A DNA stretch of 64,000 nucleotides from Acarospora socialis. Its lineage: Eukaryota > Ascomycota > Lecanoromycetes > Acarosporales > Acarosporaceae. The first letter of the stretch is position 1. Every line of letters begins with the position of its first letter. A program made the position numbers and the translations under genes. The DNA lies in NCBI GenBank assembly GCA_025617375.2, contig JAMYGW020000001.1, positions 3,100,001 through 3,164,000 on the forward strand, read 5' to 3'. A model generated the notes under the pieces. It did not search any database. It was not told the origin of the DNA and saw only the letters and a program-made list of their open reading frames with translations. Shown here piece after piece: positions 5,715 to 43,900 of the stretch.

Positions 5715-6107
5715 ATGCTTTCTAAAAATTTCAATCACTTAAGAATTGCAAAGAAAATTTAACTCAGTGATAGTCTCATCACATTTTTTTGTGAATTCTG
5801 TACTGCTCATAATTTCAATTGCTTTGTCATGATTAATGAAAGATCAAAATGTGATAAGTGTACTCACTGCAATCATTCATGCATTGTAATTTTGTGAGAG
5901 TCTCTCAACAGAACTTGTCTTTTTCTTCAAAAGAAAATAAATGATGCAAATGCAGCTCTTGATGTTCTTGCTGTCAAGATAATGCATTTTCAAAAGACTT
6001 TGAATCAAATGAATCATCATATTGCACAAAAGACTGACTGTCTTGCTGCTGAACTTAATAGTGATAATGATGAGATTGAGAATGAAGATTCTCAAACAAT
6101 GTTATAA
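5715..6107 (+). pseudogene. Extra antisense Cys-rich ORF of gypsy element A
   Basis: A 130-codon reading frame spans from an ATG just inside the left LTR to a terminal stop, on the strand opposite to gag-pol. Its position and terminal codons are the same in E and F, and a 136-codon relative occurs in B and D. It starts MLSKNFN, has a cysteine/histidine cluster in the middle, a helical stretch and an acidic Ser/Asp/Glu-rich tail (NSDNDEIENEDS). Fossil copy, degraded. Function unknown; the Cys/His cluster suggests metal binding. Confidence 0.6.
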
Positions 6108-9100
6108 CTCATTAACTCAATATCATCATTCTTCTGAACTAATATTAACTTCTTTTTTTAAAATGTTGAAGTGTTCTTGTGCAGTTCTTGAGATTCTTTT
6201 TGAGTTCTCAGATATTCTCTGAGATATCATAATCTTTTTATTTTATGAGATAGTGAACTTTCTCATTAATCATTCTCTTTTCTAAAATGTTCTTGACTTC
6301 ATATTCTTTATTGAATTTGACAGATGTTTTAATGATTTAAAGTGATATGAACTGATTGTAATGCTGTAACATGAATGCATGAAATACTGAGTGTATTCTC
6401 ATTTTCTTGAGTAAGTCTAACTCATAGTTTAATTCTTTAATGTTTCATATAATCTTGAATGATTCAATGTTCTTGTTCTTCAGCTTCTTGATTTTTTCTT
6501 TAGTTTTTATATTGTTTGTTCTTAAGTATATCTTTTTTTTTTTTTGAATAATCTTGCTTCTGTTGTTTGTTCTGTCTGTTGTTTAATTTATTTTATTAGA
6601 TCTTGATGCAGTTTCTTTATCTGAGTGATATTCAAAATTGCTTTTTGACTTCATGATTTATGTTCTTTGAAATCTCATTATACTTTTGAATTGTAGTCAT
6701 AGTTCACATAAAAAGACATTTCTTTTGTGATTTTGTTTCTTGTGTTGTTGTATGCAAACTGTGCTGTTGACAATAGTTATACTCAGTTGTCTTGACTCTT
6801 GTTGACATAGTGTCTCAAGTATGTTTCTATTATCTGATTCATTCATTTGTTTTGTTCATCTGTCTGTAAATAATATGTTGTTGACATCTTGTGTTTTATT
6901 CTGAGTTCTGCTGTGAGCATTTCTCAAAACTTACTTATAAATAGTTTGTCTCTGTTGATGATAAACTTCTTTGATAGTTTATAATTGTTAATTAATTCTT
7001 GCAGTATAATGTATATCAATACTGATGCTGTCACAGTTTCTTTGAATGAAATGAACATTGTGTATTTAATCAATCTATTCACTATTGTCAATATGCTGTT
7101 GAATCTTATTCTTCATGCTGAATTCTTTAATGATAATAGCTTTATAATAAAGTTCATAATAACTGACTTTCATGATGTGTTTGATGTGTTTAGTTGTGTT
7201 ACTTCATTATATTGTTTGTCTTAATTAATCTTGTTTCTTTAACATGAATCACACACAGTAATCATCTTGATGATTCAATTTCTAAGATTGCTGATGTTGC
7301 ATTTTCTTTGCACTAAATTCTCAGTGCACTTGATTTTTAGATGTTCACTGACTCTGCTGTAGTGACATATCTTAATGAGTTTTTTGTTCATCAAGAAAAC
7401 TTACTTCATCTTGTACATCACTGCTAAGTTCTTCATGAGAATTTTTTTGTTATCTTCACTTAAAATTTTAATGTGTATCATCTGTACATCTTCATGATCA
7501 GATTATTTACTTAAAACATTCATTTCATTATTCTCATTACTTTTCTTGTAATGAATCTGAAATTCATAATCTGTTAACTGCTCTGTTCAACAAATCTGTT
7601 GTTGATTGAGTTGTTTTGTCATTATGAAGTTTCTCAGATTCTTGTGATCTGTATAGATCTGAATTGATTTATTTGTTTTTGTAAGATAAGATCTTCAATC
7701 TTGTAGTGTCTTCACTATCACAAGAAGTTCTTTATTGTAAACTTTATATCTTTCTTTGAGTTCTGATAATTTTTTAAATTGATACACTATGAATTTCTGT
7801 TGTTTCTTCTCAATTTAATATAAATATGCTTTTACTGCAAAATCTGAAGCATCAGTTTTCAGTATTTTCTCACATACTGAGTTGAGTATTCTCAGATGTG
7901 TCATTTCACTAAAACTTTTCTTTAATACATAAAATGCATCTTTCTGCTTCTGATCTCAATGTTATTTTTTGCTTTTGTGTGTCAAACATGTTAATGATTC
8001 TGCAATTCTTGCATAGTTTGATATGAACTTTCAATAATAGTTTATTAATTCTAGAAAAACTTGTACTTTCTTGATTCATTTTGATGTTAATCAGTTTCTG
8101 ACTGCTTCTGTTTTCTTTGAATCTTTTTTGATTTGTTTAGATCAAATTACATAGTCTAAAAACTTAACTTTCTTGATCTTGAATCTGCATTTTGACTTTT
8201 TCACATACAAGACTTTCTCATTGAGCTTTGTCAATATCTTGTGCACATGTTCTCAATGTTTCTCAAGATCTTCTGAGTATATCAGAATATTGTTTAGATA
8301 TATGATTACAAAATCATCAAGATACTCTCTTAATATGTTGTTGATCAATCTCTGAAAGATGACTGATGCATTTTTCAGTTCAAATAATATAACAATGTAT
8401 TTATAGTGTTTATATCTTGTTCAAAATGCTGTCTTTCACTTCTTATCTTCTTTCATTCTGACTTGATAATAGATGTTCTTAAGATTTAAACTTGTGAATC
8501 ACTTAATCTTGTTTATTTAATCTTGCAACTCTTTTATCAGTGATAAAAGATAACTATCTTGATGAGTTATCTTGTTGAGTTATCTGTAGTCAACACATAG
8601 TCATTTCTTGTCATTTTTCTTTAACACAAACAGAATTGAATATTCTGCTGATGATTTTGATGATTTTATGAATTTTCTTTTAAGATTCTCATCAAGATAA
8701 GTTCTAACTTTCTTGAGTTGTTTTTTGCTCATTGAGTATAAAGATATTCACTTAGATTGTTTTTCATTCAATAGTGATATTTCATGATTTCATAACTTAT
8801 ACTCTGATAAGCTTATTTCTGATTGTTTAGAAATTTTGTATGCATCTTTGATTGCATATATTTTTTTTATAACTCAGTCAATCTTCAGATTTTTTCTGCA
8901 CAATCAGAGTATCTTTAGCACTGCATTGTATTTAATTGATCTCATAACATCAAACATTATCTCTTGTGAGTTTTCAAGAATTGAGACTTTCACACAGATT
9001 TTCTCATCAATTCTTTTGATGATTTCATTCATCATTTGTATGTTGAATGAACAGTGCACTCATCATGTCTCTAATCTCAACATATTGACTGTTTTTTAAT

Positions 9101-11303: not shown

Positions 11304-14300
11304 TGTAATGTTTTAATCTGAGATTTTTCAGATATGTAGAGTTAAGAGTTTGTGCTTATTGATATAATGACTGATCTGAAATGGTTCTGGTTTTTAACTC
11401 TTAAATGATTACTTAAGTTGAACATGATTCTTTTCATAAGAAAAATGATTGTGACTATATACTAAGTTTGCTTGTTGATCTCATTGTTGAGTTTGTTGAG
11501 ATGACTTGTCTATGCAATTTGTTGAGCTTGCTTGTCAAGCTCATCATCAAGCATGTTGAGATGTCACATAACTGCTGTCTAAACATTTTCTGAATGTACA
11601 TTTCTCACATATATGCATCAGTTTGTTCTAAGTTTCTACTAACTTAATCATAACATTATTCTTTTCTTCTCAGGTGCTAGTTCTTTAGAGTTTATATAAG
11701 TGAGAGTATTTATATTGTTCATTATCAGTGATGATGTTTTCTAAAAATTTCAATCATCTAAGAATCACAAAGAAAATTCAAATCAGTGACTCACTCATCT
11801 TATTTTCTTGTGACTATTGTGTTCATTGTGACATCAACTGTTTTGTAATGAAATCTTGATCAAAATGCAATAAGTGTACTCATCATGATCATTCATATGT
11901 CAGTGTATCATGAAAGTCTCTCAATAGAACTCATCTTTCACTTCAAAAGAAAATAAGTAAAGCAAACAGTGAATTGACAGTCAAGCACACTGAGCTTGCT
12001 GTACTTTTCTCAAAAGTCATACATCTTTAGAAAACACTGAATCAAATAAATTGTCATGCTTCACAGAAGACTGACTGTCTTGCTGCTGAACTTGATAGTG
12101 ATAATGATGAAATTGAGAATGAAGATTCTCAAACAATGTCATAACTTGTTAACTCAATATTGTCATTCTTCTGAGCTAATATTGACTTTTTTTCTCAAAA
12201 TATTGAAGTGTTTTCACACAGTTCTTGAGATTCTTCTTGAATTTTCAGATATTTTCTGAGATATTGTAATCTTTTCATTTTATGAGATAATGAACTTTTT
12301 CACTAATTATTCTCTTTTCTAGAATGTTCTCAACTTCATATTCTTTTTTGAGTTTGACAGACATTTTGATGATTTGAAGTGATATGAATTGGTTGCAATG
12401 CTGTAATATGAATGCATGAAATATTGAGTGTATTCTCATTTTCTTGAGTAAGTTTAGCTCATAACTTAACTTCTTGATGTTTCATATAATCTTAAATGAT
12501 TCAATGCTCTTGTTTTTCAGCTTCTTGCTTTTTTTCTTAGTTTGTATATTGTTTGTTCTCAGATATATCTTTTTTTCTTTCTCAAATAATTTTGTCTTTA
12601 TCATTCATTTCATCTGCTGTTCAATTCATCTCATTAAATTTCAATGCAGTTTTTTCATCTGAGCAATATTCAAAATCACTTTTTGACTTTGTGATCTGTG
12701 TTCTTTGAAATCTTGTTATATCTCTGAATCATAATTATAGTTTATATAGAAAGATGTTTCTTCTGTGATTTCATTTTTTGTGTTATTGTATGCAAACTGT
12801 GCTGTCAGCAACAGTTATACTCAGTTGTTCTGATTCTTGTTGACATAGTGTTTCAAGTATGTTTTCACTGTTTGATTCATTTATTTGCTCTGCTCATTCA
12901 TCTGTGAATGATATGTTATCAACATTTTATGCTTTATTCTGAGTTCTGCTGTGAGCATTCTTTAAAACTTACTCATAAACAGCTTGTCTCTGTCAGTGAT
13001 AAACTTCTTTAATAATTTATAATTGCTAATCAATTCTTGCAGTATGATGTACATCAATACTGATGCTGTTGCAGTTTCTTTGAATGAAATGAACATTGTA
13101 TACTTGATCAATCTATTCACTATGATCAATATACTGTTGAATCTCACTTCTTATGCTGAGTTCTTTGATGATGATAGTTTCATAATGAAATTCATGATAA
13201 TTGACTTTCATGATGCATCTGATGTGTTTAGTTGTGTTATTTTGTTATATTGTTTATCTCAGTTGATCTTATTTCTTTGACATGAGTCATACACAGCAAT
13301 CATCTTGATGATTCAATTTTTAAGATCACTAACATTACATCTTCTTTGCACTAGATCTTCAGTGCATTTAACTTCTAGATGTTCTCTGATTCTGCTGTAA
13401 TGACATATTTTAATGAGTTTTTTATCTGTTAAGAAAGTTTACTTCATCTTGTATATTGCTGCTAAGTCTTTTGTGAGAATTCTGTTGTTGTTTTTGCTGA
13501 GAATTTTGACATGTATTGTCTGTATATCTTCATGATCAAGTTATTTACTTAAGACATCTACTTCATTATTCTCATTATTTTTCTTGTAATAAATCTGAAA
13601 TTCATAGTCTGCTAACTGCTCTGCTCAATGAATCTGTTGTTGATTGAGTTACTTTGTTGTTGCAAAATTTCTCAAATTCTTGTGATCTGTATAGATCTGA
13701 ATTGACTTACTTGTTTCTGCAAGATAAAATCTTCAATCTTGTAGCACTTTTACTATCACAAGAAGTTCTTTATTGTGAATTTCATATCTTTTCTTGAATT
13801 CTGATAACTTTCTAAATCAATACACTATGAATTTCTGTCATTCATTCTTGATCTGATACAAACATACTTTTATTGTGAAATTTAAAGCATTAGTTTTCAG
13901 TGTCTTCTTGCATGCTGAATTGAGTATTCTCAGATGTGCTGTTCTGCTAAAACTTTTCTTTAATATGTAAAATGTATTCTTCTGCTTCTGATCTCAATGC
14001 TATTTTTTACTTTTGTACATCAAATGTGTCAGTGATTTCACAATCTTTGTATAGTTTGATACAAACTTTCAATAATAGTTCATTAATTCTAGAAAGATCT
14101 GTACTTTCTTGATTCATTTTGATGTTGATCAGTTTCTGACTGCTTTTATCTTTTTTAAATTCTTCTTGATTTGTTCAGATTGAATCACATAGTTTAGAAA
14201 CTTAACTTTCTTGATTTCAAATCTGCTTTTTAACTTTTTTATGTACAGAGCTCTCTCATTAAGCTTTGTCAATATCTTGCACACATATTTGTAGTGCTTT

Positions 14301-17300
14301 TCAAGATCTTCTGAGTATATCAGAATATCATTAAGATATGTGATCACAAAATCATTGAGATATTCTCTTAACATGTCATTGATTAATCTCTGAAAGATGA
14401 CTGATGCATTTTTCAACTTAAATAACATAACAATATATTCATAGTGTTCATATCTCATTCAGAATGCTGTCTTTCATTCTTTATCTTTTTTCATTTTAAC
14501 TCAGTAATAGATGTTCTTAAGATCTAAGCTTGTGAATCACTTAATCTTGTCTAGTCAGTCTTGCAACTCTTCTATTAGTGATAGAAAATAATTATCTTGA
14601 TGAGTTATCTTGTTAAGTTGTCTGTAGTCAACACATAGTCATTTTTTTTCATTCTTCTTTGATACAAACAGAATCAGATATTCTGTCAGTGATTTTGATG
14701 ATTTTATGAATTTTCTCTTAAGATTCTTGTCAAGATAATCTCTAACTTTCTTGAGTTGGTTCTCACTCATTAAGTATAATGACATTCACTTAAGTTGCTT
14801 TCTATTCAATAGCAGTATTTTGTGATTTCATAACTTATACTTTGATAAGCTCATTTTTGATTGTTTAGAAATCTTGTATGTGTCTTTAATTGCACATATT
14901 TCTTTCATGACTCAATTGATTCTCAAATTCTTTTCACACAATCAAGACATCTCTAGCACTGCATCATATCTGATTGATTTCATAACATTGAATGTTATCT
15001 CTTGTGAGTTTTCAAGAATTGAGACTTTCACACAGATTTTCTCATCAATTCTTTCAATGACTTCATTCATCATTTGTATGTTGAATGAATAGCACACTCA
15101 TCATGTCTCTAATCTCAATATATCAACTGTTTTCTGACTCATGATGTTACTGTCTGCTCTGAAATTCATTAATGTGTTAATTTGATGTTCATTAATTGTA
15201 ATCTTGATTCATATTTGATGACTGTCATTTTTTCTTTGAGATGTCACTAACTTCTTATTCTCTAGTCTTGTTGAGAAAGCTTTTCATTTTTTGACTCATT
15301 TAATCACTTAACTCATCTTCAAAGTTCTTGAAATCATCTAAGTTTTCTTTCAATTATCAGATTTACATACTCTAGACTATACTGCTCAATGTGTTTTTCT
15401 GAGTGTAGTTAAAATTCATACTGATTGTATTTTATCTGCAACTGACTCTCAAAGACTCTTACTCTTTGCAGAAATTCAAATAATATGTATTCTTCACTGA
15501 AAATTCATCTGTCTTCATTCTGCATGATATATTCTTCAGGTAAGCATATTTCAATTTTGTGACTTTTGATTTTTCACACAAGAAATTCTGATATCAGTTC
15601 TCTCATAACTGTCTGTATGTTTCTCATCAGATTGTTAAATTCTTTGCATATTTCTGCTTTCTGATTTTGAGTCTTTTGCTTGTTCTTTTGTATTATATTG
15701 CAATCTTATATCATTTCTTTCTGAGCACTTAGATCTCTCTTAATCTTTGTTCAGTACTTTCTTAAGAGTTCTGTCTCAGCATTGTTCAAACTTTCTTTCA
15801 TGAGTGTATTACTGTTGAAGAATATTCAAGATTCATCAATCTGAAATTCATGATCATCAATCTCTTCAATGTCATCTTTGAGAACATTGTCTTCTTTCTC
15901 AGCATCAAGAACATTTTTCTTGATAAGAATAGTTAATTCTTTTTCATAAATTGATTGACTTGTTGCATCATATCTGTTCTTCACATCTTTGTATGATTTC
16001 TGAAGATATCATTCAGCTCTGTTTTTTGTATTCATATGTGCTCAGCACATATTGTCATAACAGATTGTTTAACTTAGAGTGTCATGCACTACACTTAATT
16101 TCTTTGTCTTTGTTTTGATCATTACTGCTGCAATATTTCTTCTTTTTATTTAAGATCTGTTGCATTCTTAAGCAAGATGTCTGAGTTTTTCACAGTTGTA
16201 ACACATTTATATCTCATTTCACAGTGTCATCTGAGACTTAGTGAATCACTCTGACTAACATTCATACTTTATTCATCTAGTCTTTCATGACTTCTGACAG
16301 CACTTCTTGATCATATTGAGATTCATAAAGTTTATTCTTCTATATCTTATCAATAAAACATATTGCTTCATTCACAGTCAGAAGCTTTCTTTTTGATCTT
16401 TTATTATAGATGACATTCAATATTCTTTTTGTTTCATCTGTCATTCTCACTGACAACTATCAATGTTAATATTCAGATTGATCATTTTCTGAAGATTGTC
16501 TGATTGTTTTGCTTGAACTATTTTGTCTTTGATGAACTTTCTCAACTCACAATAGTACTGATAGATGAGTGCTTCATCATTTTATCTGATAAGTGTCACT
16601 AATCACTGAAACTCTGTGACATATACTGCTGCTGATTCACTCTGTCACAAGATATAAACTCATTTCTTTGCTGCTCTTTCTTCATCAATCACTTTGAAGA
16701 CTTTTCTTAACTCTTTCTTGAACTGTACATAGTCATTGAACATAGACTTTGTGTCTGCATTGTGTTCTTCATATCTCTTTTCTAGAAACTCATGCAGTTT
16801 GAAATCAATTCAATCAAAAGCTGCATTCACAAGATAGATCATTGTAAACAGTGTCTTTTCTTAATCAATTTGAAACTTCAACTGATTAAATTCAATGTAC
16901 AGATCAAGCTTAGTCACAAAGACTCACAGCTTTTCTCTCTTTTCATCAAAGATATCTGATATCTGTATCTTTGATGTGTTTGAGAATAGTTGTATCATTG
17001 AGACTGACATCACTGATTGTGTCATCATTCTACTCAAAGTAAACAATAGAGATGAGTTTGTCTGAACTTGCTTCAAGAATAAAGTTGAGATGTTCTTTTG
17101 TGTGTCAGACATTGTACTCATTATATTGTAAGAATATTCAAAGTGTAATGTTCTAATCTGAGATTTCTCAAGTATGTAGAACTAAGAATTTGTGCTTATT
17201 GATATAATGACTGATCTGAAATGATTCTGGTCTTTAACTCTTAAATAATTATTTAAGTTGAACATGATTCTTTTCATAAGAGAAATGATTGTGACTATAT

Positions 17301-17495
17301 ACTAAGTCTGCTCACTGATCTCACTGTTGAGCTCATTAAGATGACTTGTTTATGCAACTCATTGAGCTTGCTCATCAAGCTTGTCATCAAGCATGTCAAG
17401 ATATCACATAACTGCTGTCTAAATATCTTCTGAATGTATACTTTTCACATGTACACATCAGTTTGCTCTAAGTTTCTACTGACTTGATTGTAACA
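11304..17495 (-). mobile_element. Ty3/gypsy chromovirus B, 352-bp LTR subfamily, nested in an LTR of A
   Basis: Inserted in the right-hand LTR of A with the 5-bp duplication ATTTC/ATCTC (11299-11303 and 17496-17500), identical apart from one C/T difference. LTRs 11304-11655 and 17144-17495 are both 352 bp. Coding on minus: gag about 15950-17120 (short MSDTQKN-type N-terminus near the right LTR), reverse transcriptase about 14120-14790, RNase H about 13620-13860, integrase about 12600-13500, chromodomain about 12240-12430. Extra antisense frame at 11734-12144. Youngest layer on this side by nesting. Broken, many breaks. Confidence 0.88.
11734..12144 (+). pseudogene. Extra antisense Cys-rich ORF of gypsy element B
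   Basis: A frame of 136 codons plus stop sits just inside the left LTR, antisense to gag-pol. It is homologous to the frames in A, E and F but 18 bp longer, the same length as in D. It shows the same N-terminal SKNFN motif, central Cys/His cluster and acidic tail. Degraded fossil copy, function unknown. Confidence 0.6.
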
Positions 17496-17752
17496 ATCTC
17501 AATGTTAAAAAATTGAGTTCTCAGCTCACCTGCTCATCATTGAGCTGTTACACTGTTATATAACTGCTGTCTAGCAGTTTTTTCTGTACACACTTCAGGT
17601 GAACTTCTGATCACAGACTCATGAGTTTTTTTTTCTTTAAACATGATTATAACAACATGCTCTGTTACACAGACTATATGAATAATGAATAATTTCTGAT
17701 GTTAGTTTTAACTAAAACTATAAAAGCAGTTAGAACATTGCACTTCTCAACA

Positions 17753-20700
17753 CTTTCACTTAATGATGTTGCATTTATTGACTTTTATTAACAGTAAGTC
17801 TCAGTTGTTCAACAAAACACTTAAAGATTCATTTAAATAAAAACTTAATTAGTTCATCAATCATCATATCTTAACTGAGCACAAAGTTCACATTAATCTG
17901 ATGTTGCTTGTACAGATCATAAATATGATAATAGATAATGTTAATGTGTTTTAATCACTTATACACATGTGCATTTTTAATCAAAGTCAAGACAGTCTGA
18001 TTGTCTTTCTTGAACTGAAAAAATGAGATTACTTAATGAACTTCATTCTTCTTAATGTTCACACAATATAAATTGTCTTCAAAATACTTACTCATATTTA
18101 TATCTTGCAGCATCTGTATAAGTTAGATTTCAGTTTTTGCATATATTGATATAATCATGTATTTAGTCTCTGTGATTAAGATAACAACAAATTTTTATTT
18201 TTAATTTGCTCATGACACTGATCTATTTTTAAGCATATATATATGTTTCAGAATTGATTTCTGATCTTGTTTATCTGATGTATAATTGAAATTAAAATAT
18301 TTAAGTATAATTTAACTCTCACTGAATCTGTACACAATATTAAAATTAATGATTAATTTCACATATTGCAGCAGTTTCTTGAGCACATATTCATGATATT
18401 TTATAAAATCACTAAAATACTGATTTAATTAATCTAAAACAAAGATGATGTTCAGTTAAGTATAAATTACTGTATACATTAAACTTTTAATTGCATGTTA
18501 ATACTGTCTTTAATCTATTCTTTGATCAGCTGAGTTGATGAAGTGAAAAATATTCTATTTATTAAGTGAGATTGTTGTGATCTTATGCTTGTCAAACTGC
18601 ATATGAAGATTTCTCAGCATCTTATTCACATAATGAGTTTGATTTAAATGTAGAGTTTTTCTTTTGTGATTGTGTGTAACTTATATGTCAAGACTTTTCT
18701 GTGTCTCTTTTAAGTTCTTAACTTTGAACATTTTCATAAGAGCTTTCTTGAATCAGAAAATGTGTATCAAATTTGTTGAGACTACAATCATATTATTTAC
18801 ATAGAGAAGCAGTATGATTTTTTTTGATGCTGTTGATGAGAAAACATGAATCAGTATTGCTTTAATGAAAATTTAATTTGCACAGATCAGTAATGCATCA
18901 TTTATATCAATTTTACACAGTTTACTTCAGATCATAAAGACTACACAGTATACACAGTGTACAATTAAATGCAATTTAAACTTCAGAAGAAACTGTCATG
19001 TAGATGATTTTTTTAAGAAAGAATTTTGTAAAGATATTGTTGATGTTTATTTAATGACATTTAAGATTTTCAAGAACAACAATAACAAGAAAGACTCAAA
19101 AAGTATTGAACTTGACTGTAGATGCAAATGTGTTCTTATAATTAATGTTATACATTTATGAAAAATTTCTCATCACAACTTTTGTTTTAAACTTGTTCAG
19201 AAATTTATCAATGTTTAGTTTAAATTTAAACATTCATTTACTGATCACTATATTTATATTTTTTGATAATATAATCTCTTCTTATGTTTTATTAACTGTT
19301 AGAGTTATTAATTCTGCATAAATAACATTTTTTTACATTTTTTCTCAGACTGAGTCTCTCACTGCTTCAACATAGATGACAAATGTGAAAATGTCAAATT
19401 TAATGTTCTCAGTGTCTTTCTTATTATCTGTGATGAATGTTGTGAACATCAGTATAGCTTGTAATATCTTGATCATGAATTCATTAAAGTTTTTATTGTT
19501 GTTGTTTCATTTCTCTTTGAAATCTCAACACACAAGAATGTCTTGACTTTCTCAGTTAAAATATTCAGTGCTTTGCTAACAGAAATTTCAATATGTAAAA
19601 ACTGCTTAATCTCATTCTATTTACTTGTCTGTGATTTGTTTAAATTAACTGCAGTTAATTTATTCATTATATGAATATTTAATAAAAATGTATCAAAATT
19701 ATCTACAGTTAACTTAAACTCTTCTTTGTCATCTAAACTCATGAATCTAAGTTTGTAAATTTGTTCAAAGACAGTAAACAGAGTTGTAAATGCTGCAGAA
19801 TCTATGATGATTGCATTTTTTTATGATTATTCAATTAACTTTTGTTCAGACAGAATATTCAGCATTTATCTTTGCAGTTTAAGATCAACACTGTCTTTCT
19901 TTTCATTCTTGATGAACTTTACAGCATAATTCTTGATGATTTATTTGAGATCTGAGATTCAAAGCAGATACTGCTTTGTGATTTTATTTATATAGTTTAT
20001 AAAGACTTTCACTTATTCTTAATTCATGAACTTATTCTGTCTGTTCTTCAACAACAATTTAAAATTAACATAAAAGTAGTATTTGCAATCTCAGACACAA
20101 ATATGATCAATGAATAGTTGTACATTAGTGAAAGTCTTTTTCAAAATTATTTGTCTGTCATTAATCAAGAAATCAGTTGTTGTTCAGTTATAAAAATAAA
20201 TATTTGTTTACACTGTTTTTATTCAGAACTCTATTGAAAGTTTTGTCTTTTTGATCATAATGTGCACTGAATTCTCAGTAATATGAATGATTTTTTCAGC
20301 AACATTATTCTGAATAAACATGTAGAACACAGTGTACTACAGTGTAATGTTAAAGAATTTGCATCAGTCATTTAGAATTGATCTTAGTTCTGTGACATTG
20401 TCACTCTGTATAGTAAGCATTTTCATATTAGTTTGAAGTTCAATTTTTAATTGTCACTCTTGCAGTTTCTGTGAAACATTATCACATTACTTCAGCAATA
20501 TTGTTTATGTCTTTCAAAAATAATTGTTTACAATCTTCAGAAAGTACTGATGTCTGATAAATGATAGAAATAAAAAATTATATATATTAATGAAAATTAG
20601 AACAAGAATGTTGATCTTTTGCTCACTTACAGTGTGCTTTTGCTGATTAACAAACATAATGATGACACAAACTTCACATATATTCTTCTTGTCTTCAGTA

Positions 20701-24200: not shown

Positions 24201-27200
24201 CTCAAAGACATTTATTATCAAGTTAGAATGAAAGAAGATAAAAAATGAAAGACAGCATTCTGAACAAGATATGAACACTATGAGTACATTATCATGTTAT
24301 TTAAATTGAAAAATGCATCAGTCATCTTTCAGAGATTGATCAATGATATATTAGAAGAATATCTCAATAATTTTGTGATCACATATCTTAATAATATTCT
24401 GATATACTCAGAAGATCTTGACAAGCACTGAAGACATATGTAAAAGATATTAGCAAAGTTTAATGAGAGAGTTCTGTATATGAAAAAGTCAAAAAACAGA
24501 TTCAAGATCAAGAAAGTTAAGTTTTTAGACTATGTGATTTGATCTGAACAGATCAAGAAGAATTTAAAGAAAATGAAAGCAGTCAGAAACTGATCAACAC
24601 TGAAATGAATCAAGAAAGTACAAGTCTTTCTAAAATTGATGAACTATTATTGAAAGTTTGTGTCAAACTATGCAAAGATTGTGAAATCACTGATGTGTTT
24701 AACACACAAAAGTGAAAAATAGCACTGAGATCAAGAGCAGAAGAATGTGTTTCATGTATTAAAGAAAAGTTTTAGTGAAATGACACATCTGAAAATACTC
24801 AATTCAGTATGCAAAAAGACACTGAAAACTGATGCTTTAAATTTTACAGTAAAAGTATGTTTGTATCAGATTGAGAATGAACAACAAAAACTCATAGCAT
24901 ATTAGTTTAGAAAACTATCAGAACTCAAGAAAAGATATGAAGTTCATAATAAGAAACTTCTTGCAATAGTAAAAGCACTATAAAACTGAAGATCTTAACT
25001 TGCAAAAATGAACAAGTTAATTCAGATCTATACAGATCACAAGAATCTGAAAAACTTTGCAATGACAAAGTAACTCAATCAACAACAGATTTGTTGAACA
25101 GAGCAGTTGACAGATTATGAATTTCAAATTTATTACAAAAAGAGTAATGAGAATGACAGAGTGAATATCTTAAGTAAATAACTCAATCATGAAGATATAC
25201 AGATGATATATGTTGAAATTCTGAACAAAAACAACAAAGAAATTCTCACAAAAGACTTAGCAGCAATGTATAAGATGAAGTAAGCTTTCTTAACAGACAA
25301 AAAACTCATTAAGATGTGTTACTACAGCAGAGTTGATGAATATTTAAAAATCAAATGCATTGAGAATCTAGTGCAAAGAAAATACAACATTAGTGATTTT
25401 AGAAATTGAATCATCAAGATAATTACTGTGTACAACTCATGCTGAAGAAATAAGATCAGTCAAGATAAATGATATGATGAAGTAATGTGACTGAATACAT
25501 TAAATGCATCATGAAAATCAGTTACTATGAACTTCATCACAAAACTATCACTGTCAAAGAATTTGACATGAAAAGTAAGATTCAACAATATATTAACTAT
25601 AGTGAATAGATTGATCAAGTACACAATGTTTATTTTATTCAAAGAAAGTGTAACAGCATCAGTATTGACATACATCATACTATGAAAATTAATTAGCAAT
25701 CACAAACTATCAAAAGAATTTATCACTGACAGAGACAAACTGTTTTCAAGTAAGTTTTGAGAAACACTCACAGTAAAACTTAGAATAAAACACAAAATGT
25801 TAATGACATATTATTCACAGATGAATAAACAGAACAAACAAATGAATTAAACAGTGAAGACATACTTGAAACACTATGTCAACAAGAGTCAAGATGACTG
25901 AATATGACTGTTGTCAATGACACAGTTTGCATACAACAATGCAAAAAATGAAATCACAGAAAAGACATCATTCTATGTGAACTACAGTTACAACTTAAAG
26001 ATATAATGAGATCTCAAAGAACACAGATTACAAAGTCAAAAAGTAATTTTAAATATCACTCAGATGAAAAAACTGCATCAAGATCTGACAAAACAGGTTG
26101 AACAGCAGACAGAATGAACAATAAAGATAAAATCATTTGAAAAAGAAGAAAAAGTATACTTAAGAATGAACAACATACAAATTAAAGAAAGAAGCAAGAA
26201 GCTAAAAAACAAAAGCATTAAATCATTTAAGATCATACAGAACATCAAAGAATTAAGTTATGAATTAGACTTATTTAAGAAAATGAAGATACATTCAGTA
26301 TTTCATGCATTTATGTTACAACATTGCAATCAGTTCATATCACTTCAAATCACTGAAATATCTGTCAAACTCAAAAAAGAATATGAAGTTAAGAACATTT
26401 TAAAAAGAAGAATGATTAGTGAAGAAGTTCACTATCTCATCAAATAAAAAGATTATGATATCTCAGAAAATATCTGAGAACTCAAAGAGAATCTCAAGAA
26501 CTGCACAAGAACACTTCAATATTTTGAGAAAAGAAGTCAATATTAACTCAGAAAAATGATGATATTGAATCAACAAGTTATGACATTGTTTAAGAATCTT
26601 CATTCTCAGTTTCATCATTATCACTATTAAGTTCAGCAGCAAGACAATCAGTCTTCTGTGAAGCACAGCAGTCTGTTTGATTCAGTATTTTCTGAAGATG
26701 TATAACTTTTGAGAAAAGTGCAGCAAGCTCAGTGTGTTTAACTGTCAATTTGTTGTTTGCTTTACTTATTTTCTTTTGAAGCAAAAGACAAGTTCTGTCA
26801 AGAGACTTTCACAATACATTGACACACAGATGATCATGATGAGTATACTTATCACATTTTGATCAAGATTTTATTACAAAACAGTTGATGCTGCAATGAG
26901 CACAATAGTCACAAGAAAACAAAATGAACACATCATCAATCTGAATTTTCTTTGTGATTCTTAGATGATTTGAATTTTTAGAAAGCATTGTTGCTGATAG
27001 TAAATAATGTGAATATTCTCACTTATATAGATTCTAAAGAATTAGTGTCTGAGAAGAAGAGAATAGTGTTATGATTAAGTCAGAATGAACTTAGAACAAA
27101 CTGATGTGTGTATGTGAAAAGTGTATATTTAGAAAATATTTAGACAGCAGTCATGTGATATCTCAACATGCTTGATGATGAGCTTGATGAGCAAACTTGA

Positions 27201-27418
27201 TGAATTGCATGAATGAGTTGTCTCAACAAGCTTAATGATGAGATTGATGAGCAGACTCAGTATATAGTCACAGTCATTTTTCTTATGAAAAAAATCATGT
27301 TCAACTTAAATAACTATTTAAGAGTTAAAGACCAGAACTGTCTCAGATCAGCTGTTATATTAATAAGCACAAACTTTTAGTTCTACATATCTGAGAAAGT
27401 TCAGATTAGAATATTACA
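21218..27418 (+). mobile_element. Ty3/gypsy chromovirus D, 352-bp LTR subfamily
   Basis: The only gypsy copy on the + strand; it sits in the internal part of C1. LTRs 21218-21569 and 27067-27418 are both 352 bp. The flanks TTTTT/TCTTT fit a 5-bp duplication with one C/T difference. Parts in order: gag from about 21600 with a zinc knuckle near 22510-22555, a charged helical spacer, protease about 23540-23800, reverse transcriptase about 23950-24600 (short readable motif FVSKKNDKK near 24060), RNase H about 24830-25070, integrase about 25200-26130 and a chromodomain about 26270-26450. Extra minus-strand frame at 26578-26988. Broken, many breaks. Confidence 0.88.
26578..26988 (-). pseudogene. 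Extra antisense Cys-rich ORF of gypsy element D
   Basis: A frame of 136 codons plus stop on the strand opposite to gag-pol, between the chromodomain end and the 3' LTR. Its length equals that in B. The C-terminal half keeps a leucine-rich helical stretch (LAALFSKVIHLQKIL) and the acidic tail. Degraded; function unknown. Confidence 0.6.
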
Positions 27419-28694: not shown

Positions 28695-28950
28695 TTAATC
28701 ATTGAGCATTATATCAAGTTGTCAATTAGTTTCATTTTACTCAATCTTAAAGTTTCATATTGAGTGTCAAAAATGTCATTTTGCTCAATCTTTGAGTCTT
28801 ATATTGACAGTCAAGAGTGCTTATTTTGATCTCATATTAAGCTGCTAAGAGTGTTGTTTTGCTCAATCTTAAAGCTCTGTATTGATGATCAGTAATGTTT
28901 GTTTTGTTTAATTTTTGAGTTCTCATATTAAGCTGTCAAGACACTAAAAC
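28695..28950. repeat. Tandem repeats in the leader of copia C1
   Basis: About six imperfect units of roughly 45 bp, one of them shortened. Each has the pattern TTTTGCTCAATCTTTGAG, then a short segment ending in GTCAAGA-like sequence. They sit between the gag end and the right LTR, which is the 5' leader of this minus-strand element. The same array recurs in C2. Confidence 0.75.
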
Positions 28951-29213
28951 AGTATGCACTTTCTTTGAGAAGCTTTTTGCTAACTTGAACTCATAATTTA
29001 TTGATAAATAAAAGAATACTTGTGCTATACTGCTGATTAACTGTTTATTTAATGAAACATACATCATTAATTTGATCATGATCAACATAAATTGTAAAGA
29101 TTGTCTATTCACATGTTCTGTCACACAAACTATATGAGTAATAAGTAATTTTTGATATTAGTTTCAACTAAAACTATGAAAGCAGCTAGAACATCACACT
29201 TCTCAACAAACAA

Positions 29214-30570: not shown

Positions 30571-32194
30571 TATTGAGAGATAAAAAGAATACTCATGCTA
30601 TACTGCTGATTAACTGTCTATCTAGTGAAACATACACTGTTAACTTGATTGTGATTGACATAAGTTGTAAAGATTGTCTATTCACATGTTCTGTCACATA
30701 GACTATATGAGTAATGAGTAATTTTTGATATTAATTTCAACTAAGATTATGAAAGCAGCTAGAACACTGCACTTCTTAACACTTTTACTCAGTGATGCTG
30801 CATCTATTGACTTTCATTAACAGTAAGTTTCAGTTGTTCAACAAAGTGCTTAAAGATTCATCTAAATAAAAGCTTGATTAATTCATCAGTCATCATATCT
30901 TGACTGAGTACAAAGTTCACATCAATTTAATTTTGCTTGTGCAGATCACAAATATAATGATAGATAATGTCAATGTACTTTGATTATTTATGCATATGTG
31001 CATTCTTAATCAAAATTAAAACAGTCTGATTATCTTTCTTAAGCTGAAGAGATAAGACTGTTTGATGAGCTTCATTCTTTTTGATGTTCACACAATATGA
31101 ATTGTCTTCAAGATACTTGTTCATATTCATGTTTTGCAGCATCTGTGTAAGTCAGATCTCAGTCTTTACACATATTAACATAATTATGTATTCAGTCTCT
31201 GTAATTGAGATGACAACAGATTTTTGTTTTTGACTTGTTCATAATACTGATCTGTTTTCAAGCATGTATATATGTTTCAGAATTGACTTTCAATTTTGTT
31301 TGTCTGATGCATAATTGAAGTCAGAATATTCAAGTATGACTTGACTCTCACTGAATTTGTACACAATGTCAAAATTAATAATTGATCTCACATATTGCAG
31401 TAGTTTCTTAAGTACATGTTCATGATACTCTGCAAAATCATTAAAATACTGACTTAGTCAATTTAAAACAAAGATAATGTTCAGTTAAGTGTGAATCACT
31501 GCATATATCAGACTTTCAATTGCATATTGATATTGTATTTGATCTATTCTTTGATTAGTTGAGTTGATGAAACAAAGAACATCATATTTATTGAGTAAGA
31601 TTTTCATGATTTTGTGCTTGTCAAATCACATATAAAGATCTCTCAGCATCTTGTTCACATAATGAGTCTGATTTAGACATAAAGTTTTTCTTTTGTGATT
31701 ACATGTGACTTATATGTCAAGAATTTTCTGTGTCTTTCTCAAGTTCTTGACTTTGAACATCTTCACAAGAACTTTCTTAAATCAGAGAATATGTATCAGA
31801 TTTGCTGAAACTACAATTATATTGTTTACATAGAGAAGCAGCATGATTCTTTTAATGCTGTTGATGAGAAGACATAAATTAATGTTGTTTTAATGAAAGT
31901 TTAATTTGCACAGATCAGTAATACATCATTTATATCAATCTTGTGCAGCTTACTTCAGATCATAAAGACTATACAATATATGTAGTATACAGTTAAATGT
32001 AATTTGAACTTCAGAAAAGACTGTCATGTAGATGATCTTTTTAAGAAAGAATTTTGTGAAGATGTTGTTGATGTTTACTTAATGACATTTAAGATTCTCA
32101 AAAACAACAATGACAAGAAAGACTCAAAGAGTGTTGAACTTAACTGTAAATGCAAAAATGTTTTTATAATTAATGTTATATATCTGTAAGAAAT

Positions 32195-35100
32195 TGTAAC
32201 ATTTTAATCTGAGATTTCTTGAGTATGTAGAACTAAAAGTTTGTGCTTATTGATATAACAGCTGATCTGAAATGATTCTGATCTTTAACTTTTAAATGAT
32301 TACTTAAGTTGAACATGATCATTTTCATAAGAAACATGATTCTACTATATAGAATGTGCTTGATGTTTCTGCATTGAGCATTCTTGATGTTTTGATATCT
32401 TAATGTTGAGAAGTTGAGCTTTTAACTTGTCTGCTCATCATCAAGCTGTTGCATTGTTATGTGATTGCTGTCTAGCAGTTTTTCTCATACACATTCTGAA
32501 TAAACTCTTAATTTCAGATCTGTAAGTTTCTTTCTCTTTAAATATGATTATAACATCATTTTTTTTCTTCAGATGTTAGTTCTTTAGAGTTTATTTAAGT
32601 GAGAGTATATAACAATTCTCATTATCAGCAATGATGCTTTCTAAAAATTTCAATTGTCTAAGAATTGCAAAGAAAATTCAACTCAGTGATAGTCTCATCA
32701 TGTTCTTTTGTGAATTCTGTACTGCTTGTGATCTTGATTGCTTTGTTATGATTGATGAAAGATCAAAATGCAATAAGTGTACTTGTCACAATCATTCATG
32801 CATTGCAGTTTTGTGAAAGTCTCTCAACAGAACTTGTCTTTCTCTCTGAAAGAAAATAAATGATGTGAATGTGACTCTTGATGCTTTTGTTGTCAAGATA
32901 ATGTGTTTTCAAAAGATTTTGAATCAAATGAATTGTTATGCTGCACAGAAAACTGACTGTCTAGCTGCTGAACTTGATAGTGATAATGATGAGACTGAGA
33001 ATGAAGATTCTCAAACAATATCATAACTTATTGACTTGATGTCATCATTCTTCTGAACTAATATTGATTTTCTTTCTTAAAATATTGAAGTGTTCTTGTG
33101 CAGTTCTTGAGATTCTCTCTGAATTTTCAGATATTCTCTGAGATATTGTAATCTTTTTATTTTATGAGATAATGAACTTTTTCATTAATCATTTTCTTTT
33201 CTAAAATGTTCTCAACTTCATATTCTTTATTGAGTTTGACAGACATTTCAATGATTTGAAGTGATATGAACTGATTGCAATGCTGTAACATGAATGTGTG
33301 AAATACTGAGTGTATTCTCATTTTCTTGAGTAAGTCTAGCTCATAGCTTATTTTTTTGATGCTTTATATAATCTTGAACAGTTCTATGCTTTTATTTTTC
33401 AGCTTCTTGCTTCTTTCTCTAGTTTTTATATTGTTCATTCTCAAGTATATCTTCTCTTCTTCTTTAAATAATGTTGTTTCTATCATCTGTTTCATCTGCT
33501 GTTTGATTCATTCTGTCAGATCTTGATGCAGTTTTTTCATCTGAGTGATATTTAAAATTGCTTTTTGACTCTGTGATTCATGTTCTTTGAAATCTTGTCA
33601 TATCTCTGAGTTGTAGTCATAGTTCACATAGAAAGATGTTTCTTCTGTGATTTCATTTCTTGCATTGTTGTATGCAAACTGCACTGTTGATAACAGTCAT
33701 ACTCAGTTGTCTTGACTTCTGTTGACATAGTGTTTCAAGTATGTTTTTACTGTTTGATTTATTTATTTGCTTTGTCTGTTTGTCTGTGAATAATATACTG
33801 TTGATATCTTGTGTTTTATTTTAAGTTCTGCTGTGAGTGTTTTTCAAAATCTGCTTGTAAACAGCTTGTTTCTGTCAGTGATAAATTCTTTTAATAGTTC
33901 ATGATTGCTAATCAATTTTCTTAGTATTGTGTATGTCAATATTGATGCTGTTGTGATTTCTTTGAATGAAATGAACATTGTGTACTTGATCAATTTATTT
34001 ACTATAATCAATATACTGTCAAATCTCACTCTTCATGCTGAATTCTTAGATGATGATAACTTCATAATGAAGTTCATGATAATTGACTTTCACAATGCAT
34101 TTAATGCATCTAATTGTGTTATTCTGTCATACTGTTTATCTCAATTAATCTTATTTCTTCAGCATGAATTGCACACAGCAATCATTCTGATGACTTGATT
34201 TCTAAAATTATTAATGTTGCATCTTCTTTGCACTAAATTCTCTGTGCATTTAACTTCTAGATGTTCTTTGATTCTGTTGTAATGATACATTCTGATGAGT
34301 TCTTTGTCTGTTAAGAGAGTTTACTTTATCTTGTACATTGCTGTTAAGCTCTTCATGAGAATTTTATTGTTGTTTTTGCTGAGAATTTCAGCATATATTG
34401 TCTGTACATCTTCATGATCAGATCATTTATTTAAAATATTCACTTCATCATTTTCATTACTCTTTTTGTAATAAATCTGAAATTCATAGTCTGTCAACTG
34501 CTCTGCTCAACAAATCTGTTGTTAATTGAGTTGTTTTGTTGTTGCAAAGTTTCTCAAATTCTTGTGATCTGTATAGATCTGAATTGATTTGTTCATTTTT
34601 GCAAGATAAAATCTTCAGTCTTGTAGTGCTTTCACTATTGCAAGAAGTTCTTTGTCATGAATCTCATATCTTTTCTTGAGTTCTGACAGTTTTCTAAATC
34701 AATATGCTATGAATCTCTGTCATTCATCTTCAATCTAATATAAACATGCTTTTACTGTGAAATCTGAAGCATCAGTTTTCAGTGTTTTCTTGTATGCTGA
34801 ATTGAGTATTCTCAGATGTGCTGTTTCACTAAAACTTCTCTTTAATGCATAAAATGCATTTTTCTGCTTCTGATCTCAATGCTATTTTTTGCTTTTGTGT
34901 GTTAAATGTGTTAGTGATTTTGCAATTCTTGCATAGTTTAATACAAATTTTCAGTAATAGTTTGTTAGTTCTAGAAAGATCTGTACTTTCTTGATTCATT
35001 TTGATGTTGATTAGTTTCTGATTGCTTTTATTTTCTTTAAATTCTTCTTAATTTGTTCAGATTGAATCACATAGCTCAGAAACTTGACTTTCTTGATTTT

Positions 35101-38377: not shown

Positions 38378-40953
38378 GAAATCTCTCATCATAACTCTTG
38401 TCTTAAACTTGTTCAGAAATTCATCAGTGTTCAGTTTAAGTTTAAATATTTACTTGCTGATCACTATGTTTGCATTCTTTGATGACACAATCTCTTCTTA
38501 TGTTCTGTTGACTGTTAAAGTCATTAATTTTACATAAATAGCATTTTTTCACATCTCTTTTCAGACTGAGTCTCTCACTGCTTTGACATAGATGACAGAT
38601 GTGAAAATATCAAATTTAATGTTTTCAGTGTTTTTCTTATTATCTGTGATGAATGCTGTGAATATCAGCATATTCTGTGATATCTTAATCATAAATTTAT
38701 TGAAGTCTTCATCATCATTGTTCTGTTTTTTTCTTGAAATCTTGACACACAAGAATATTTTGACTTTCTCAGTTAAAATATTCAGTGCTTTGCTGACAGA
38801 AACTTCAATGTGTAAAAACTGCTTAATCTCATTCTATTCATTTGTCTATGATCTGTTTAAATTGATTATGATCAATTTATTCATTATATAAATATCTGAT
38901 GAGAATGTATCAAGATTGTCTGCAGTCAACTTAAACTCTTTTTTGTCATTTAAATTCATAAATCAAAATTTGTGAATTAATTCAAAGACAGTAGACAGAG
39001 TTGTAGATACTGTGAAATTCATGATGACTACATTTTTTTATAATCACTTAACTGACTTTTGTTCAGACAAAATGTTCAGTGTTTGTCTTTGCAGTTTAAG
39101 ATCAACATTATTTTTCTTTTTATTCTCAACAAATTTCACAACATAACTCTTAATGATCTGCTTAAGATCTGAAGTTTAAAGCAGATATTGTTTTGTGATT
39201 TTATCTGTATAATTTATGAAAACTTTCACTCATTCTTAATTTATAAACTTATTCTGTCTGTTCTTTAACAACAACTTGAGATTAATATAGAAGTAGTATT
39301 TGCAATCTTAGACATAAATGTAATCAATGAATGACTGCACATCAGTGAAAATCTTCTTTAAAGTTATTTGTCTGTCATTGATCAAGAGATCAATTGCTGT
39401 TTAATTGTAAAAATAAATATCTATTTGCACTGTTTTCACTCAGAACTTTATTGAAAGTTTTGTTTTCTTAATTATGATGTGCACTGAATTCTCAGTGATA
39501 TAAATGACTCTTTTGACAACATCATTCTGAATAAACATATAAAACATAATATACTGCAGTGTAATGTCAAAAAATCTGCATCAGTCATTCAGAATTGATC
39601 TTAACTCTATGATATTGTCACTTTATACAACAAGCATTTTTGCATCAATCTGAAGCTCAATCTTTAGTTGTCACTCTTGCAATTTCTGTGAAATGTTATT
39701 GCATCACTTCAGCAGTATTGTTTATGTCTTTTAAGAATAGTTGTTCATAATTTTCAAAAAGTACTGATGTTCAGCAAATGACAGAAATAAGAAATCACAT
39801 ATATCAATGAAAATTAAAGCAAGAATGTTGATCTTCTGCTCACTCACAGTGTATTTTTGTTGATTGATAAACTTAATGATGACACAAACTTCACATATGT
39901 TTTTCTTGTCTTCAGCAATGAGAATTGATTTTTCAAAAATTGTAACTTTGTAAAGATTGTGAAGCTTTGCAGAGTCAAGATGAACAAACTGTTGATGTTA
40001 TAACTTGTAAATTTTAATCTTTTTACTCAAAAATAAAGTGTCAACAAAGAATGAAGTGTCAGCAGAACTTAATAAATCAATCTGTATCTAAGAGTTCATA
40101 TTCAGTACTGTGACTGAAAGAGTCATTTTTAAATTAAATAACATATGCATAACAGATAACAGAACAAACTCATTCAGTTTTTTTACAATGTGTTTGACTA
40201 TATAGACATCATTTCACTCAAATACTTCTATCATGACATTGTCATACTTATTTCACATATAAAGACTGTGCTGATCAAAGCTTTTCTGCAATTTCATTTT
40301 ACACATTTACTTTTTTAATAGAAGATTAACTTTTAGTTCAGACACATAAAGTGTTGAACTTAAACTTACAAAATTTCTGAATCTGTTCTGCATTACAGTT
40401 ACTTTATAATAGTGAGAGTATAAGTGTTTTTTCTCAACTTTAATTCTTTAACATCATATGTGTATCAAAGAATCACTGAAGAGTTAACATTGATCAATTA
40501 TGTGTATGAAGCATTTAAAATTCACAACTCATTCAGAATTAAGTATCTTACTGATAACTTTCTTAAACAAAGTAACAATCTTATTGTCTTTCTCTGCATC
40601 AGATTCAGATAAGAATGAGTTATTGTTTTTTTTAGTTTTAACATCAAAAGCTTTATGCTTTCTATTTTTGTACTTGAATCTCATTTTGTCTTTATGATGT
40701 AAGTTGTCTGCAGACAATTTGTCTAACTTTCTGACTGACTTGACTGCAGTTGAAACAAATAACTTTCTTAACTCAATGTTTTTGTGAACAGCAGAAAGAT
40801 ATTTACAGTCTTAAATGTGATGAGAATCACAGTAAAGAAGATATTTAACTGATTTATGCTGAGAAAAGTGATCATTGTTGAAGCTTGATGATCTTTGATA
40901 GTGATATTTCACATTATGCTGATATAAGTATGTTGAGTCTTTCTCTTTATATT

Positions 40954-43900
40954 TGTAACATTCTAATCTGAGATTTCTCAGATATGTAGAACTAAGAGTT
41001 TGTGCTTATTAATATAATAACTGGTCTGAAATGGTTCTGGTCTTTAACTCTTAAATTGTTATTTAAGTTGAACTTGATTGTTTTCATAAAAGAAATAACT
41101 TTACTATATAAAGTGTGCTTGTTGTCTCTGTGTTGAGTATTCTTGATGTTTTGATGTTTTGATGTTGAGAAATTGAGCTCACAGCTTGTTTGCTTGTTGT
41201 CAAGCTGTTATGCTGTTATGTGACTGCTGTCTAACAGTTTCTCTTGTATACACTTCAAGTAAATTTCTGATCACAGATCTGTGAGTTTCTTTCTTTTTAA
41301 ATATAATTATAACATCATTCTTTTTCTTCAGGTGCTAGTTCTCTAGAATTTATTTAAGTGAGAGTATATAATAATTTCATTGTCAGCAACAATGCTTTCT
41401 AAAAATTTTAATTGCTTAAGAATTGCAAAGAAAATTCAACTCAGTGATAGTCTCATCACATTCTTTTGTGAATTCTATACTGCTTGTGATCTCAATTGCT
41501 TTGTCATAATCAGTGAAAGATCAAAATGTGATAAGTATACTCACTGCAGTCATCTGTGCATTGCAGTTTTATGAAAGTCTCTCAACAGAACTTGTCTTTC
41601 TCTCTGAAAGAAAATAAGTGATGTGAATATGATTTTTGATGTTTTTGCTGTCAAAGTGATGCATTTTCAGAAAACTTTAAATCAAATAAATTATTGTATC
41701 ATACAGAAGACTGACTGTCTTGCTGCTGAACTTGATAATGATAATGATGAGATTGAGAATAAAAATTCTCAAACAATATCATAACTTGTTGACTTGATGT
41801 CTTCATTCTTCTGAATTAATGTCAACTTCTTTTCTCAAAATGTTGAAGTGTTTTTGCACAGTTCTTGAGATTCTTTTTGAGTTCTCAGATATTTTCTGAA
41901 ATATTATAATCTTTTTATTTGATGAGATAATAAACTTTCTCATTAATCATTCTCTTTTTTAAAATGTTCTCAACTTTATATTCTTTGTTGAGTTTGACAG
42001 ACATTTCAGTGATTTGAAGTGATATGAACTGATTGCAATGCTGTAGCATGAATGCATGAAATACTGAGTGTATTCTCATTTTTTTGAGTAAGTCTAACTC
42101 ATAACTTAATTTCTTAATGTTCTATATGATCTTGAATGATCTGATGCTTTTGTTCTTCAGTTTTTTGCTTTTTCTTTTAGTTTTTATGTTATTTGTTTTT
42201 AAATATATCTTTTCTTCTTTTTTAAATGATCTTGTCTCTGTTGTTCATTCTGTTTGCTGTTTGATCTGTTTTGTTAGATCTTGATGCAGTTTTTTCATCT
42301 GAGTGATATTCAAAATTGCTTTTTGACTTTGTGATTCATGTTCTTTGAGATTTCATCATATCTCTGAGTTGTAGTCATAGTTCACATAGAAAGATGTTTT
42401 TCTTGTGATTTTGTTTCTTATGTTGTTGTATGCAAACTGTGCTGTTGACAATAGTCATATTCAGTTGTTTTGACTCTTGTTGACATAGTGTCTCAAGTAT
42501 GTTTTCACTGTTTGATTCATTCATTCATTCTGTTCATCTGTCTATGAATAATATGTTGTTGACATCTTATGCTTTATTCTGAGTTCTGCTGTGAGTGTTT
42601 CTTAAAATCTGCTTGTAAACAGCTTGTTTCTGTTGATGATAAATTCTTTTAATAGTTTATGATTGTTAATCAATTCTTGCAGTATAATGTACATCAATAC
42701 TGATGCTGTTGCAGTTTCTTTGAATAAAATGAACATTGTGTACTTGATCAATCTATTCATTATTGTCAATATACTGTTGAATCTCATCTCTCATGTTGAG
42801 TTCTTTAACAGTGATAGCTTCATAATGAAGTTCATGATAACTGACTTTCATGATGCATTCAGTGTGTTTAGTTGTGTTACTTTATTATATTGTTTATCTC
42901 AATTGATCTTATTTCTTTGACATGAGTTGCACACAGCAATCATTTTGATGATTCAATTTCTAAAATTGCTAATGTTGTGTCTTCTTTGCACTAAGTTCTC
43001 AATGCATTTGATTTCTAGATATTCATCAATTCTGCTGTAGTGATACATCTTAATGAGTTCTTTGTCTGTCAAAAAAGCTTGCTTCATCTTGTACATTGCT
43101 GCTAAACTCTTCATGAGAACTTCTTTGTCATCTTTGCTTAAAATTCTGATGTGTATCATCTGTATATCTTCATGATTGAGTTGTCTACTTAAAATATTCA
43201 CTCTATCATTCTCATTACTCTTTTTGTAATAAATCTGAAATTCATAGTCTGCTAACTGCTCTGTTCAACAAATCTGTTGTTGATTGAGTTACTTTGTTGT
43301 TATGAAGTTTCTCAGATTCTTGTGATCTGTATAGATTTAAATTGACTTGCTTATTTCTGTGAAATAAGATCTTCAATCTTGTAGTGCTTTTACTATTGTA
43401 AGAAGTTTCTTGTTATGAATCTTGTATCTTTTCTTGAATTCTGATAACTTTTTAGATCAGTATGCTATGAGTTTTTGCTGCTCATTCTCAATCTGATATA
43501 GACATGCTTTTACTGTGAAATTTAAAGCATCAGTTTTCAGTGTCTTCTTGTATGTTGAATTGAGTATTCTCAGATGTGCTGTTCTGCTAAGACTTTTCTT
43601 TAATGTGTAAAATGCATTTTCTTGCTCTTTATCTCAATGTCATTCTTTGCTTTTGTGTGTTAAGTGTGTTAGTGATTTCACAATTCTTGCATAGTTTAAT
43701 ACAAACTTTCAATATTAGTTTGTTAACTCTAGAAAAATCTGTACTTTCTTGATTCATTTTGATGTTGATCAGTCTCTGACTGTCTCTGTCTTCTTTAAAT
43801 TTTTTTTAATTTGTTTAGATCAAATCACATAGTTTAGAAACTTAACTTTCTTGATTTTGAATTTGCTTTTTGACTTTTTCACATACAAGACTCTCTCATT

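Follow-up and report, generated by a model that had tools for sequence, protein, structure and literature searches.

Five antisense frames in decayed gypsy elements

The window analysed here is a 64-kb stretch of the genome of Acarospora socialis (assembly GCA_025617375.2, contig JAMYGW020000001.1, positions 3,100,001 to 3,164,000) that holds five copies, A to E, of Ty3/gypsy elements. Each copy carries an extra frame between pol and the 3' long terminal repeat (LTR), and a sequence-only reading of the window had taken this frame to be a real accessory gene. That reading had located all five frames correctly, on the strand opposite to gag-pol and adjoining the 3' LTR (Table 1). The antisense ATG sits 77-78 bp inward of the LTR, and the antisense gene and pol converge. 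The nature of the host element is documented best in copy E, where a profile search of the minus strand matched Gag, RT, RNase H, Integrase_H2C2, SH3_Tf2-1 and Chromo in chromovirus order; the matches to Gag, Integrase_H2C2 and the first RT piece lie under curated cut-offs, and the pieces of copy E that were searched gave no match to an integrase core. All five copies have the frame of the chromodomain end, as judged by eye, and a CCHC-type pattern in Gag that has partly decayed; the orientation of gag-pol in copies A and B was taken from these two features.

All five window copies of the antisense gene are dead, each being interrupted by internal stops, and no frame is listed at any of the five places among the window's open reading frames (ORFs) of at least 100 aa. 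Within each copy, no other frame has as few stops as the antisense one, which has 3-4 with the terminal stop counted, compared with 4-21 in the other five. Two length classes, 130 and 136 codons, had been proposed, and although both exist, there are more than two genome-wide: among 85 copies the frame ends at 130 codons in 27, at 136 in 25, and at 128-171 in the other 33. The nominal terminal TAA reads CAA or CAG in 26 of 80 copies, and therefore the C-terminus may run ∼10 codons further, almost to the pol stop. Among the copies counted, 92% have a stop in the pol stop column itself, whose four commonest codons include neither CAG nor TGG. At the other end of the antisense frame, the start column is identical in all 83 aligned copies (ATG in 83 of 85), and the gaps that align the length classes are whole codons.

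Copies throughout the genome form three families

Copies of the antisense gene were collected by protein search of the genome that holds the window (31.15 Mb, 38 contigs). The 130- and 136-codon types each gave 150 scored matches, the best of 344 and 350 candidates, in lists that overlap. Altogether, the antisense-gene matches listed have 297 starts, with at least 6 places entered twice, and fall into three families, of which II and III are more distant from the window copies. Family II accounts for 15 of 148 matches listed, at an identity of at least 43%, with family I, to which the window copies belong, making up most of the remainder; family III accounts for 61 of 150 matches listed, at an identity of at least 47%, and 13 of these 61 are stop-free over the matched part. 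Stop-free matches numbered 2 among the 150 listed in one family I query search. A single copy was checked from family II and another from family III; in both, the gene is again antisense and adjoins SH3_Tf2-1 and Chromo. The Chromo match is under its curated cut-off in the family II copy.

The association is apparent also when pol is taken as the starting point. Among the best 150 of 361 candidate SH3_Tf2-1 domains, 135 have a listed antisense gene on the opposite strand no more than 1.2 kb downstream, one has the gene on the same strand, and 14 are without a listed gene, which need not be true absences. Among these matches listed, the gene lies on the wrong side of SH3_Tf2-1 in 1 of 150.

Hypermutation and protein-level constraint

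Most of the window is heavily mutated. Bases 2000-55000 contain 0 CpG, 7 CC and 21 GG, and bases 56000-64000 contain 402 CpG; CpA and CpT are still common throughout the same 53 kb. When copies are compared with the most GC-rich aligned copy, its CpC sites read T in 75% in same-class copies, and its CpA and CpT sites in 26-28%. The decay resembles repeat-induced point mutation (RIP) with a preference for CpG and CpC, being complete at CpG and near-complete at CpC. An excerpt of a review on Coccidioides likewise names CpG and CpC as particular targets of repeat-induced mutation in that fungus (PMC9409882). Comparison of the two LTRs within a copy gives 43-48 transitions and 0-2 transversions for B, C and E (the copy C bounds being approximate), and 45 transitions and 10 transversions for D.

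Many of the stops are of a kind that this process generates. In a first count, 165 of 240 stops, the nominal terminal TAA included, are a single C-to-T or G-to-A step from a codon found in the same column. Codon 61 of the 130-codon frame (codon 60 of the 136-codon frame) is a stop in 81 of 83 copies and TGG in one. We considered this stop as the mark of a non-gene and rejected the idea, as it fits a TGG in CpC context, kept in one copy, that would have been hit repeatedly by hypermutation.

Because RIP makes transitions only, transversions remain informative about the coding past of such wreckage. For family I we scored a column as informative if the minor purine/pyrimidine class occurred in at least 5 of 83 copies, with 3 copies as a looser threshold; the p values are approximate, as columns share ancestry. 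Informative columns at codon positions 1, 2 and 3 number 12, 8 and 19 of 126, 126 and 125 (position 3 against positions 1 and 2, Fisher p 0.047), and 14, 9 and 24 at the looser threshold (p 0.0076). The upstream LTR and leader are flat, at 26, 28 and 25 of 134, 134 and 133, and the gene is lower than this upstream region (p 0.0003). The downstream pol end has a periodicity of its own, 7, 16 and 5 of 148 each. One family III pair differs by 3, 2 and 13 transversions over 140 codons, and mean transversion fractions within families are 0.109, 0.070 and 0.233 for family II (one pair) and 0.032, 0.016 and 0.128 for family III (three copies). Between families, the fractions are 0.242, 0.182 and 0.358 for I against III, and 0.288, 0.228 and 0.327 for II against III. 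Transversions thus show a third-position excess in three families of this genome. Together with the same place and orientation in the three families and the invariant start column, this bears out the proposal of a real accessory gene, and the antisense frame is almost certainly what is left of a former protein-coding gene.

This constraint also bears on two explanations in which the protein is absent or secondary. The frame could be mechanical, an antisense shadow of pol or a chance product of AT-rich DNA that was never translated; all five window copies are broken, RIP-decayed AT-rich DNA can hold long frames, and the list of frames of at least 100 aa has nothing at these places. However, the frame lies outside pol, with 31 bases left between its end and the pol stop of copy A, and for the same reason we rejected the idea that it is simply the complement of pol. 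The third-position excess in three families contradicts a mechanical origin, as do length changes in whole codons that keep the frame and homologues at 27-36% identity that retain the cysteine spacing described below, leaving this explanation with very little probability. Alternatively, the conserved function could be that of an antisense RNA that tunes gag-pol expression, the protein being secondary, as antisense transcripts do tune expression in some yeast elements. The orientation, the convergence with pol and the start beside the LTR would yield a putative antisense transcript. However, constraint in three families is at the level of the protein, and the frame stops short of pol, so that base pairing would need read-through; we regard an RNA function as improbable.

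A six-cysteine core among probable decayed arginines

The sequence-only reading had noted a dense Cys/His cluster in the encoded protein. Here hypermutation sets a trap, since loss of CpG can turn arginine codons into Cys or His codons and so mimic a zinc-finger-like cluster. In the 83 aligned copies, 17 columns consist of at least half Cys plus His. Nine of these mix Cys and His, and one of the nine retains a CGN codon in one copy; when the CpG of the arginine codons CGT and CGC is lost, a hit on one strand leaves TGY (Cys) and a hit on the other CAY (His), and the nine accordingly look like decayed arginine, which these residues presumably once were. One further column has His without Cys. 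The remaining seven are never His, only Cys or Tyr, and thus the cluster is in part a mutational artefact, but a core of seven cysteine columns stands.

Six of the seven are spaced C-x2-C-x6-C-x8/9-C-x2-C-x6-C, and the seventh lies near the C-terminus. The six cluster columns vary to Tyr only and are all intact in 47 of 83 copies, and the fetched copies of families II and III have the same cysteine pattern, with some positions decayed to Tyr. Zn2Cys6 factors have the spacing C-x2-C-x6-C-x(5-12)-C-x2-C-x(6-8)-C and are basic between the second and third cysteines; in Gal4-type factors the six-cysteine cluster is followed by a helix and an acidic tail. The window's family has this spacing, with a linker of 8-9 residues, and family III does not. 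Three mixed, arginine-like columns lie between the fifth and sixth cysteines, and the protein has an acidic C-terminal tail. The cysteine spacing makes zinc binding somewhat the better bet for this protein, and nucleic-acid binding can be inferred.

The protein is small, its cysteines form a zinc-type pattern, and arginine-like columns separate the last two of the cluster; it could therefore also be a nucleic-acid chaperone or a particle component that serves replication or packaging rather than regulation. The frame lacks the Gag knuckle, C-x2-C-x4-H-x4-C, and has paired C-x2-C-x6-C triplets instead. We rejected the more specific idea that it substitutes for a missing nucleocapsid, which is unlikely because Gag has its own CCHC-type pattern in all five copies. 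The same Gag pattern and the acidic tail speak against a chaperone or particle component more generally, and we consider such a role unlikely.

Structure prediction and database searches

AlphaFold2 was run on stop-free frames as fetched from families I and III. Both models contain a long helix, at residues 61-121 of the family I frame and 70-127 of the family III frame, with 39 residues in each at a predicted local distance difference test (pLDDT) score of at least 90. No family in Pfam or NCBIfam matched the antisense frame over curated cut-offs. Matches below the cut-offs to Prefoldin, SlyX, AATF-Che1, arginyltransferase, DUF5063, DUF4796_C and Flu_C_NS1 were rejected as reflecting AT-rich or helical composition, as were those to Gp-FAR-1 (E 0.00032) and a clostridial neurotoxin receptor-binding family (E 0.0046). 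Carboxysome chains found in the sequence search of the PDB (best E 1.5) were also rejected. A search of viral contigs gave seven pattern matches, none of them a relative.

Comparison with known antisense genes

Additional antisense genes are not without precedent in fungal gypsy elements. Zhao et al. (2011, Virology 417:248) reportedly described such a gene, brtn, in Boty-like Ty3/gypsy elements of Botrytis cinerea. In the excerpts available of later papers, a Boty-type element has gag, ZnF_C2HC, reverse transcriptase (RT), integrase (IN) and CHROMO domains plus brtn-106 (PMC4227169), Boty of Botrytis and Sclerotinia has an antisense ORF of unknown function between pol and the 3' LTR (PMC7264820), brtn is present in BcGypsy1 (PMC8365987), and a Monilinia transcript is similar to BRTN (PMC5987419). 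The likeness is that of an antisense additional gene in a chromodomain gypsy element, compared by layout only and from these excerpts of citing papers. Our gene has the same position, between pol and the 3' LTR on the opposite strand, as seen in the domains and LTRs of copy E, the pol stop of copy A and 135 of the 150 pol domains listed, and the same kind of host, a chromodomain Ty3/gypsy element with Chromo and SH3_Tf2-1 in copy E and in one copy each of families II and III. By layout it is most likely a gene of the same kind as brtn.

In the plant elements Grande1, RIRE2, Retand and PvRetro13, the ORF aORF-3R likewise lies antisense between pol and the 3' LTR and is given as of unknown function in the same excerpt (PMC7264820), but its hosts are plants, and it was compared by position, not by sequence. 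The closest likeness for the protein is Zn2Cys6 (Gal4-type, PF00172), in the six-cysteine spacing and the predicted long helix that follows it, and by this analogy it may perhaps act as a zinc-cluster dimer. With the terms tried, searches of the open-access literature brought up no report of the gene described here from this lineage, nor any account of it as a zinc cluster.

A putative zinc-binding regulator of its own element

Taking these features together, we favour, with a probability of roughly 0.72, a former convergent gene between pol and the 3' LTR that encoded a zinc-binding, dimeric regulator of its own element. Transcription would start from an antisense promoter within or adjoining the 3' LTR and give a short transcript ending near pol; in the protein, the six cysteines would hold zinc, the long helix would make the dimer, and the product would bind the element's own LTR DNA or transcript and so regulate its expression or silencing. 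The regulatory role, considered by itself, is a tentative suggestion. A bolder version, in which an entire lineage of fungal chromoviruses has its own Gal4-like dimeric six-cysteine regulator that is expressed antisense from the 3' LTR, recognises the LTR and controls gag-pol transcription, and that was perhaps captured from the transcription-factor superfamily of the host, is unlikely as a whole.

Several results weigh against this interpretation. Taken by itself, family I has a modest third-position excess, and the comparison of families I and II gives a weak one (0.240, 0.243 and 0.316), the weakest of the three comparisons between families. As copies were found by protein search, they are biased toward in-frame copies, intact frames and whole-codon gaps. 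In addition, 75 of the 240 stops have no single-step source in the same column, being mainly TGA at two columns where it alternates with CAA (33 and 15) and TAA at residue 61 (11); the TGA/CAA alternation is what a decayed CGA would look like. The resemblance to Zn2Cys6 is also incomplete: the family III linker of 18 residues is outside the range of that family, the stretch from the second to the third cysteine has a single arginine-like column, and Pfam Zn_clus (PF00172) has no match at E up to 10 in six frames, a search whose sensitivity is lowered by RIP-decayed input. The N-terminal 60 residues have pLDDT below 50 in one model and, by block, below 70 in the other, where mostly strands are modelled. 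Foldseek with the family III model found no match at E below 3 (best E 3.1), and by sequence the PDB holds no convincing relative (best E 1.5) and none for family III.

A different role for the protein would be that of an anti-silencing factor directed against methylation, RIP or heterochromatin. Cytosine DNA methylase domains occur at three loci of the same genome (C3:855595, C2:1420221 and C8:614409), which are candidates for the hypermutation machinery, and these elements have been destroyed by hypermutation. However, the copies that carry the gene were heavily mutated anyway, and we think an anti-silencing role rather improbable.

LTR elements have been known to carry antisense accessory genes, so far without an explanation. 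In this case, protein-level constraint can be read from the hypermutated remains of three element families in one genome, for a protein with a defined cysteine core and a predicted helix. This yields a biochemical prediction that can be tested, namely zinc binding, dimer formation and LTR binding.

Coordinates and further features

Table 1. Antisense genes and associated element features in the window.
Feature	Copy	Position	Strand	Remarks
Antisense accessory gene	A	5715..6107	+	130 codons plus stop; 2 internal stops
Antisense accessory gene	B	11734..12144	+	136 codons plus stop; 3 internal stops
Antisense accessory gene	C	26578..26988	-	136 codons plus stop; 3 internal stops; gag-pol on +
Antisense accessory gene	D	32634..33026	+	130 codons plus stop; 2 internal stops
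Antisense accessory gene	E	41392..41784	+	130 codons plus stop; 2 internal stops
3' LTR	A	5277..5637	-	361 bp; 77 bp from LTR to gene ATG; ends set by comparison with copy E sequence
3' LTR	B	11304..11655	-	352 bp; TGTAAT...ATAACA
5' LTR	B	17144..17495	-	LTR pair: 45 transitions, 0 transversions
3' LTR	C	27067..27418	+	From inverted repeat with copy B LTR
3' LTR	D	32195..32555	-	Start set from the length; local alignment starts at 32191
3' LTR	E	40954..41314	-	361 bp
5' LTR	E	46775..47135	-	361 bp
Pol stop codon	A	6139..6141	-	31 bases between pol stop and antisense-frame end
Gag	E	46183..46374	-	PF03732, E 0.0042, under curated cut-off
Reverse transcriptase	E	43829..44284	-	PF00078, two pieces, first under cut-off
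RNase H domain	E	43244..43549	-	PF17917, E 2.9e-21
SH3_Tf2-1 domain of pol	E	42035..42214	-	PF24626, E 1.4e-13
Chromodomain of pol	E	41828..41980	-	PF00385, E 2e-7
SH3_Tf2-1	C	26148-26327	+	Opposite strand to antisense gene
SH3_Tf2-1	D	33277-33456	-	Opposite strand to antisense gene

The antisense leader (41315-41391 in copy E, and the same in the other copies) contains a polypyrimidine tract plus CAG in 73 of 83 copies, scored with a loose pattern. The tract is probably the complement of the element's polypurine tract, and the polypyrimidine-CAG is a possible splice acceptor for a putative antisense transcript. Copy B (11304-17495) lies within the 5' LTR of copy A, and its flanks, ATTTC and ATCTC, are likely a target duplication of 5 bp whose two halves differ by one transition. 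Other repeats occupy parts of the intervals between the gypsy copies, at 17655-19809, 27938-32146, 38379-39026 and 47136-48399.

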